Source: Bacteroidia bacterium
Lineage (GTDB): Bacteria > Bacteroidota > Bacteroidia > 2-12-FULL-35-15
NCBI GenBank assembly: GCA_030654175.1
Contig: JAURXZ010000049.1
Location: 156,334-220,333, forward strand
Length of the DNA: 64,000 bases
Reading direction: 5' to 3'
Each line of letters starts with the position of its first letter. Within the stretch, counting starts at the first letter, position 1. Made by a program: the position numbers and the translations under genes. This document shows, piece after piece, positions 4,556 through 46,702 of this stretch. The notes beneath the pieces are model-generated. The model made no database searches, was not told where the DNA came from, and saw nothing but the letters and a program-made list of their open reading frames with translations.

Positions 4556-4646
4556 GGGCGTTCCCCTTTCTGAAAAGAAAGGGGCGGGCTTTTCACTTCA
4601 ATCTTTTCTAAACAGAAAAGGATTTACGTTGCAATCCCTAACGCAG
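4556..4646 (+). repeat. dispersed intergenic repeat, copy 1
   Basis: Begins GGGCGTTCC and ends CCCTAACGCAG. It contains two hairpins: stem 1 CCCCTTTC/GAAAGGGG (4563-4584) and stem 2 formed by TCTTTTCT/AGAAAAGGA. Near-identical sequence recurs at 46610-46702 and, inverted and enlarged, at 25629-25770. All three copies lie between convergent genes, here the E1 gene and galE. Confidence 0.85.
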
Positions 4647-5726: not shown

Positions 5727-5806
5727 AAAATTTGTTAAGTTCAGCAGTTAAAAATGGAACGATGATGACGCTGATTGTTGTGATTAAAATAAGATTTTTA
5801 GAAAAA

Positions 5807-5900
5807 ATCAAGAAACAAGTATCAAGTATCAAGTATCAAGTATCAAGAAACAAGTATCAAGAATTAATTATCAGGAAACAAGAATCAAGAAACAAAAAGC
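5807..5900. repeat. imperfect tandem array of a 7-base word (CAAGTAT / CAAGAAA)
   Basis: About a dozen consecutive copies of CAAGTAT, CAAGAAA or CAAGAAT occupy the gap between the BNR/PKD gene and galE (both minus strand). Just upstream, 5752-5801 carries a degenerate half of the GGAACG...GATGACGC repeat seen at 9827-9954. There are no spacers, so this is not a CRISPR. Confidence 0.8.
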
Positions 5901-5956
5901 AATTCATCATCTAACTTTCTCTCTTTGAGACTTCGTGTCAAAAATAACAGTAATTT

Positions 5957-25488: not shown

Positions 25489-25628
25489 GTGTCATAAAAA
25501 CAGAGTTCGTTTGGGTTATAGTATTGGTAAGCCTTCACAAAAAAAATGTAGCCTTAAAGGCCTGAGTTCTATTCTTAATTCGGACCTAAAATCCATTAAA
25601 AGCGACAAATTCTCATTTCATGGTAATG

Positions 25629-25770
25629 CTGCGTTAGGGATTCCTTCGACAGGCTCAGGATAAATTCCGCGGAAATCCTTTTCTTTTTAGAAAAGATTGA
25701 AGCCCTTCGACTTCGCTCAGGATAAACTCCAAGCCCGCCCCTTTCTCTTTTAAGAAAGGGGAACGCCCCC
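25629..25770 (-). repeat. dispersed intergenic repeat, copy 2, interrupted by two short repeat insertions
   Basis: Inverted relative to copies 1 and 3. It keeps the CTGCGTTAGGGATT edge, the stem-2 hairpin and the stem-1 hairpin (CCCCTTTC/GAAAGGGG). It carries CCTTCGACAGGCTCAGG at 25643-25659 and CCCTTCGACTTCGCTCAGG at 25703-25721, neither of which is in the other copies. Confidence 0.82.
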
Positions 25771-25965
25771 ATGAAAGGGGCTTAAACATATTGTTTTATT
25801 TTTATTAATCGAACAAAGGTTAAAAGCCTTGTAAACAAAGCGTTTTTCCAAAAGACATAATGAAGGAGATCTTCCACAATGAGATTATAGATAAAGAAAA
25901 AACGGATCGTGTTTGCTATTGGTTAAAGCAAACATCGATCCGTTAAGTACTTATATAAGAATTAG

Positions 25966-46609: not shown

Positions 46610-46702
46610 GGGCGTTCCAATTCTTTAAAAGAAGAATTGGCGGGCTTTTCACTTCAATCTTTTCTAAACAGAAAAGGATTTACGTTGCAATCCCTAACGC
46701 AG
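46610..46702 (+). repeat. dispersed intergenic repeat, copy 3
   Basis: Matches copy 1 from GGGCGTTCC to CCCTAACGCAG, including an identical second hairpin. The first hairpin has a different sequence (CCAATTCTT/AAGAATTGG) at the same place, so pairing is kept while bases changed. Lies between the convergent regulator and the gene at 46745. Confidence 0.85.

Follow-up and report, generated by a model that had tools for sequence, protein, structure and literature searches.

Three copies of a folded repeat lie in the window (the whole stretch of 64,000 nucleotides that was analysed), each between convergent genes. An earlier note had placed them there, and they were found at the positions it gave, with one fold fitting all three (Table 1). 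A covariance model trained on six copies from the same genome recovered all three, and the claim of conserved pairing came out stronger than first stated. Copies 1 and 3 were matched on the minus strand by the Rfam family RF01705 (Flavo-1) with 52.5 and 50.6 bits, respectively, against a gathering cut-off of 42 (E-values in the window of 1.7e-8 and 5.7e-8). Copy 2 was absent from the RF01705 matches at the gathering cut-off in the scan of the window.

Table 1. Positions of the Flavo-1 copies and their parts in the window
Feature	Position	Strand	Basis or remark
Copy 1, Flavo-1 core	4558..4644	-	Covariance model and Rfam
Copy 1, hairpin B (first hairpin of the earlier note)	4563..4584	-	CCCCTTTC/GAAAGGGG
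Copy 1, kernel region	4590..4638	-	Two ATTGnAGCGnAAA halves joined through hairpin A; middles AACG and AGTG
Copy 1, hairpin A (second hairpin of the earlier note)	4604..4619	-	
Copy 2, possible target duplication, left half	25555..25559	.	TAAAG; by reading; four of five bases equal to the right half
Copy 2, full miniature element	25560..25820	+	261 bp; IS982-type ends around the core
Copy 2, left terminal inverted repeat	25560..25573	+	GCCTGAGTTCTATT, two mismatches to ACCTGAGTTCGATT
Copy 2, Flavo-1 core	25631..25766	+	38.2 bits, six-copy model; interrupted by two REP-like stretches
Copy 2, REP-like stretch 1	25643..25669	+	CCTTCGACAGGCTCAGG..., by reading
Copy 2, REP-like stretch 2	25703..25731	+	CCTTCGACTTCGCTCAGG..., by reading
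Copy 2, right terminal inverted repeat	25807..25820	-	ACCTTTGTTCGATT on the minus strand, two mismatches
Copy 2, possible target duplication, right half	25821..25825	.	TAAAA; by reading
Copy 3, Flavo-1 core	46612..46700	-	Covariance model and Rfam
Copy 3, hairpin B	46617..46640	-	CCAATTCTT/AAGAATTGG; both arms changed, still pairs

The core of copy 1 is made up of a closing stem (GCGTT/AACGC), an inner helix (GGG/CCC), a symmetric kernel and the hairpins A and B. Copies 1 and 3 have 64 nt identical. The letters reported for the first hairpin were correct, the arms of copy 1 being found in copy 2 as well and the changed arms in copy 3. The second hairpin, described as identical throughout, is so in copies 1 and 3 but differs by one loop base in copy 2. 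The greater length of copy 2 is due to two REP-like stretches (CCTTCGAC..GCTCAGG) in its central loops. By reading, such CCTTCGAC..GCTCAGGATAAA stretches recur at the same kernel positions in copy 2 and in copies elsewhere in the genome of the window (C31:266835 and C27:505558). In about 10 of 130 copies of that genome (e.g., C40:27332, C31:80693 and C27:466080) the loop of hairpin B holds a second long palindrome, TACCTCACCCC...GGTGAGGTA, so that hairpins are nested in hairpins. Apart from the element, an imperfect tandem repeat of approximately 14 bp was seen at 5789-5907 of the window, between two minus-strand open reading frames.

Conserved fold and symmetric kernel

When 131 distinct copies of the genome were aligned, 98.1% of 3958 pair cells held standard pairs and 19 of 31 pairs showed double-sided changes, figures that are favoured by the fitting of the alignment to the structure. 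Pairing fell to 44-59% when the partner was slid by one to three columns, and none of 500 shuffles attained any of five measures. Double-sided changes were seen at all nine pairs of hairpin B when copies were compared. Other genomes contributed 44 distinct matches, in which 94.4% of cells paired and 27 of 31 pairs were changed on both sides; there, the inner helix was found flipped, its outermost pair being CG in 22 cases and GC in 20. Pairing at these levels with compensatory changes bears out the earlier proposal of selection on the folded structure.

The strictest part of the fold is the kernel, in which two ATTGnAGCGnAAA halves are joined by hairpin A, of 16 to approximately 30 nt. The middles of the halves covaried: AGCG/AGCG was found in 62, AACG/AGTG in 45 and AGTG/AACG in 6 of 127 copies, three of the 130 being left out as unparsed. 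Because the length of hairpin A varies, the two halves would stand in a fixed relation only in a folded strand.

Which strand folds was addressed in two ways. For copy 1, the Flavo-1 strand gave -29.5 kcal/mol as RNA compared to -26.3 for its complement, and -19.6 compared to -16.6 kcal/mol as DNA; for copy 2, which carries the inserts, it was the complement that folded better as RNA (-49.3 compared to -42.1 for the Flavo-1 strand). Counts of mispairs in the alignment, a weak test of strand, gave 22 G.T versus 9 A.C in the core (p 0.03) and 14 versus 24 in hairpin B (p 0.14). These supersede earlier G.T:A.C counts that used anchored pairs, namely 12:2 for hairpin A, 8:3 for the closing stem, 2:2 for the inner helix, 5:1 for the kernel and 6:12 for short hairpin B. 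The mispairs leave the folding strand unsettled.

Copy numbers, empty sites and IS982-type ends

The genome of the window (5.1 Mb, 51 contigs) holds at least 134 RF01705 matches, at least 130 of them above the curated cut-off; these counts are lower bounds, 150 of 1322 candidates having been scored. The four matches below the cut-off were removed before the analysis of 130 copies. Matches of any kind were found in 33 of 59 genomes (this one and 58 relatives). Among the 35 relatives of the same genus, 22 had a match and 13 had no Flavo-1 match, with counts ranging from 0 to at least 61 per relative, where up to 66 candidates were scored. Of 296 genomes drawn evenly across the phylum, 44 gave matches at E 0.001 and 36 gave matches above the cut-off. 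In one genus, all 17 genomes listed carry at least 15 matches each, match-less genomes being mostly not listed. The statement in the earlier note that related sequences occur in other Bacteroidota thus held among both the relatives and the phylum draw.

Five copies lie on the stretch C34:321011-332123, to which G027:C6:45085-58473 is collinear; none of the five was present in the latter, by alignment and by the covariance model (L246). Window copy 1 was likewise absent from the syntenic junction of G027 (L167), a relative with 2 matches in its whole genome. All six empty sites come from this one relative, for which the alternative is loss there instead of gain here. At 58 loci of relatives, around the orthologues of the upstream genes of copies 1 and 3, there were two weak matches (L189 and L140), neither at the junction. 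Copy 1 in G027 was the one case in which synteny was established beyond the gene itself, and copy 3 was left out of the count of empty sites. No target duplication was seen at fixed offsets from the core in 127 copies, three of the 130 being left out for want of a 3' edge. The high, erratic counts within the genus and the six of six empty collinear sites indicate a mobile, non-autonomous repeat. Downstream of lepA, two Flavo-1-like elements lie in inverted order (L049:2342-2549 and L052:2393-2582), and the same arrangement was seen in G023 and G005; since this site is common to two species, some copies are long-lived.

A subset of copies have longer arms in common, which end approximately 67-69 nt upstream and 50-53 nt downstream of the core in inverted repeats, ACCTGAGTTCGATT. 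With up to two mismatches, ACCTGAGTTCGATT occurred 62 times in the genome compared to 15 for a reversed-pattern control, and its inverted pairs span 219-261 bp in some cases. Some pairs enclose Flavo-1, as in copy 2, and others enclose another core, which has AACCACGGTCTGAAGACCGTGGTT-like hairpins as well as GGCTTTAGCC ones and gave no Rfam match at E 0.1. Such sibling elements lie at C6:251816-252034, C31:478342-478569, C17:51251-51476, C17:108041-108259 and C31:221950-222178; the second is flanked, by reading, by TAATA on both sides. In leave-one-out profiles, all 9 left and all 12 right seed arms beat the 99% level of a shuffled null, as did 8 of 122 left and 11 of 119 right non-seed flanks, with about 1.2 expected on each side. 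At least one outer arm (99% null or seed) was present in 29 of 131 copies, window copy 2 included and 16 of them seeds, and 102 had no arm at this level. At the 95% level, an arm was found in 36 of 131 copies, where chance alone would yield approximately 12 from the 241 non-seed flanks, and 95 had none. Window copies 1 and 3 had zero arm score on both sides and lack terminal inverted repeats of the IS982 type; decay of old ends may account for this. Copy 2 has these repeats, and named IS982 elements carry the same ends.

The assignment to IS982 comes from relatives. In G017, a 493-bp unit with ACCTGAGTTCGATT ends and TATAA on both sides encodes the C-terminus of a transposase, which matched Pfam DDE_Tnp_1_3 (2.7e-32) and NCBIfam IS982 (6.7e-30, 104.5 bits, below the full-length cut-off of 130); the unit is an internally deleted copy. 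Of 286 relatives found in named genomes, 80 were fetched and 35 examined. In 26 of these 35 the ends formed an inverted pair that agreed at 15-18 of 18 bases, all but one of the ACCTGA type, and several of the 9 without a pair were cut by contig ends. In 25 of these 26 the element measures 1000-1065 bp end to end, and 14 have equal 5-bp flanks (e.g., TATTA/TATTA). IS982 elements are described as approximately 1 kb long with AC ends (PMC7335449).

With up to one mismatch, ACCTGAGTTCGATT was frequent in G022 (40), G015 (25; control 0), G017 (20; control 5) and G007 (11; control 0), and absent or rare in G003 (0), G004 (0) and G026 (2), all three of which carry many Flavo-1 copies. Eight of the 11 matches in G007 are no more than 10 bp from the end of a contig, as would be expected of a collapsed multi-copy insertion sequence. 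The genome of the window had no IS982 match at E 0.001, and no source of transposase was found in it; of 13 further IS982-like matches, from 12 genomes, none had ACCTGAGTTCGATT ends on both sides. In G055, from another family, nothing was shared by eye outside CTAGC...GCTCC, and the unit seems to end at the stem. The armless majority, the lack of an IS982 match in the genome itself and the unshared flanks in G055 show that IS982 ends are one mode of spreading in this lineage, not the whole family.

An IS982-derived MITE of approximately 240 bp has been reported in Cardinium (PMC9769881) and is a direct precedent. As described there, it resembles the present elements in its size, in inverted repeats very near those of an IS982-family element, in the lack of a transposase gene and in its host, also a member of the Bacteroidota. 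It differs in that the parental insertion sequence is present in Cardinium, whereas the genome of the window has no IS982 match, and in that the interior here is a structured core that is also found without such ends.

Taken together, Flavo-1, Rfam's 'sRNA', is probably a dispersed, non-autonomous mobile repeat with IS982-type ends in a minority of copies, the fold of which is under selection, not as a terminator. Copies with ACCTGAGTTCGATT ends would have been moved by an IS982 transposase acting in trans. The armless copies would be either older ones with decayed outer ends or ones that moved without those ends.

More tentatively, the kernel and closing stem may form a self-contained mobile unit of the Bacteroidota that is driven by neither RAYT nor IS982 in origin. 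Its single-stranded form, with the paired ATTGnAGCGnAAA halves in a symmetric G.A-rich helix, would be recognised by a putative protein, probably a dimer, that places copies of it in intergenic DNA, and capture into IS982 miniature elements would have given it a second route of spreading in the lineage of the window. We regard this extension as possible but less likely than not.

Placement relative to genes and alternative roles

The junctions of all three window copies are convergent, as the earlier note had said, but in the whole genome this was true of 37 of 130 copies; the other copies were in 75 co-directional and 15 divergent gaps, or over short open reading frames in three cases (simple ORF calling). 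The impression that all are convergent arose from a small sample, on top of a tendency in this genome. Counted by gaps, with window copy 2 included (it is outside the 130, yet also convergent), 129 gaps hold an element: 76 co-directional, 38 convergent and 15 divergent. Convergent gaps are about as many as divergent ones on a chromosome, so the excess of 38 over 15 is a tilt toward gene 3' ends; the median distance from stop codon to element was 45-47 nt. A placement control from element-free gaps was discarded as biased, since the neighbours of a convergent gap cannot be convergent. In G055, 27 copies (3 of 30 loci were left out) showed no such tilt, with 3 convergent and 3 divergent. The earlier note had named unpaired first hairpins and random placement as findings that would count against it: hairpin B was paired in 95.2% of cells, and placement was mixed, convergent gaps outnumbering divergent ones but most copies being co-directional.

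The tilt and the closeness to stop codons are what would be expected if the element were a bidirectional intrinsic terminator or a 3'-UTR element, retained at convergent gene ends for the benefit of the host, and a terminator-like site was indeed present on the strand opposite to Flavo-1 in 47 of 130 copies. On the Flavo-1 strand, a GC stem followed by a U-run was found in 21 of 130 (raw scan counts), and most copies lack this combination; none was detected inside copy 1. Moreover, 12 of 131 gene 3' ends had a terminator-like site ahead of an element, a share matched by gaps free of the element (14 of 136), and the two-way terminator suggested at first is not supported. Protection of mRNA 3' ends, also suggested, predicts a sense bias; in co-directional gaps, which hold 75 of the 130 copies, 39 were in the same and 36 in the opposite orientation, and the corresponding numbers in G055 were 11 and 10, so that this role is not supported either. 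Together with the 13 match-less relatives of the genus, these findings make a terminator or 3'-UTR role improbable. If Flavo-1 is instead a mobile repeat, its copies would accumulate downstream of genes through the purging of those inserted in genes or promoters.

Two other observations on placement were made in G055. At six loci (L360, L361, L365, L366, L367 and L371), the T-run of an apparent intrinsic terminator of the facing gene directly adjoins, by eye, the 3' edge of the element, possibly an insertion preference. A replication-strand bias (13 minus versus 3 plus in the first 1.7 Mb of contig C1, where the skew is mainly positive) was set aside, as the sign of the skew flips locally and the boundary was drawn by eye (25 copies, 20 sampled windows).

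As short, folded, intergenic sequences in more than 100 copies, the elements resemble REP/BIME repeats, and movement by a RAYT/TnpA-REP (Y1) single-strand transposase was considered. In copies 1 and 3 one of the strands folds somewhat better than the other, and the Bacteroidetes possess RAYT subclass 2.6, for which 'atypical secondary structures' are reported (PMC6006769). However, among 35 Y1 loci (all 5 of this genome and 30 of 67 matches in 18 relatives), none was directly flanked by Flavo-1, and one had a copy approximately 1.4 kb off. Five of the 18 genomes (G044, G050, G031, G005 and G023) had Flavo-1 but no Y1_Tnp match, and the RAYT genes of this genome are adjoined, by reading, by other palindromes. 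Flavo-1 also differs from REP/BIME in being larger, with two hairpins and a symmetric kernel. A RAYT mobiliser is therefore disfavoured and, like termination, seems unlikely. The palindromes that differ from Flavo-1 are those at L032, L033, L034 and L035. At L031:2334-2514 (contig C27), three tandem copies like Acido-Lenti-1 (RF01687, 32.6-33.9 bits, below the cut-off of 37) adjoin an IS200-like Y1 transposase gene (L031:1486-1938) with the YIENQ..HH motif of subclass 1.2; Acido-Lenti-1 may be another Rfam 'sRNA' that is the repeat of a transposase. A likeness of the Flavo-1 ends to integron attC sites was rejected, as the core-site consensus does not fit.

That Flavo-1 is a true trans-acting small RNA or a cis-regulatory RNA, following its Rfam type, is very improbable in spite of the strong RNA-type covariation and of its grade 'y', probably an RNA, in Weinberg 2010 (PMC2864571), given more than 100 copies in this genome, no orientation preference here or in G055, and reported hits in sense, in antisense and outside transcripts, which speak against a consistent sense transcript (PMC9723704).

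Meaning for the Flavo-1 family

In sequence and fold the element is the Flavo-1 of Rfam, where it stands as an sRNA gene with a model of 76 positions; in the present genome it forms a dispersed repeat, to which hairpin B and the closing stem belong, and some copies lie inside a larger transposable unit. Flavo-1 is also mentioned in PMC9029176, and no description of it as a mobile element was found in the portions of the open-access literature consulted.

Structured MITEs of the ERIC, Correia and RUP type are likewise small intergenic inverted-repeat elements and can be transcribed. They have other hosts and other ends, and Flavo-1 is distinguished from them by the compensatory evolution of its core.

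Flavo-1 thus behaves as a small passenger mobile element with a strictly kept fold, and neither as a terminator nor as an RNA gene of the ordinary kind. Selection would see the fold itself, probably as a protein-binding structure of single-stranded DNA or RNA, and the fold would be needed for amplification or harmlessness, not for termination. Since 2010 Flavo-1 has been listed as an 'sRNA' family with no function assigned to it, and its reading as a mobile repeat accounts for the erratic counts and for the indifference to sense and antisense. For researchers on RNA, it means that each Flavo-1 match need not be a gene. The IS982 ends provide a concrete candidate mobiliser, and the core, which retains its fold by compensatory changes with the outer ends gone or absent, offers a natural case for what structured mobile elements are selected for.
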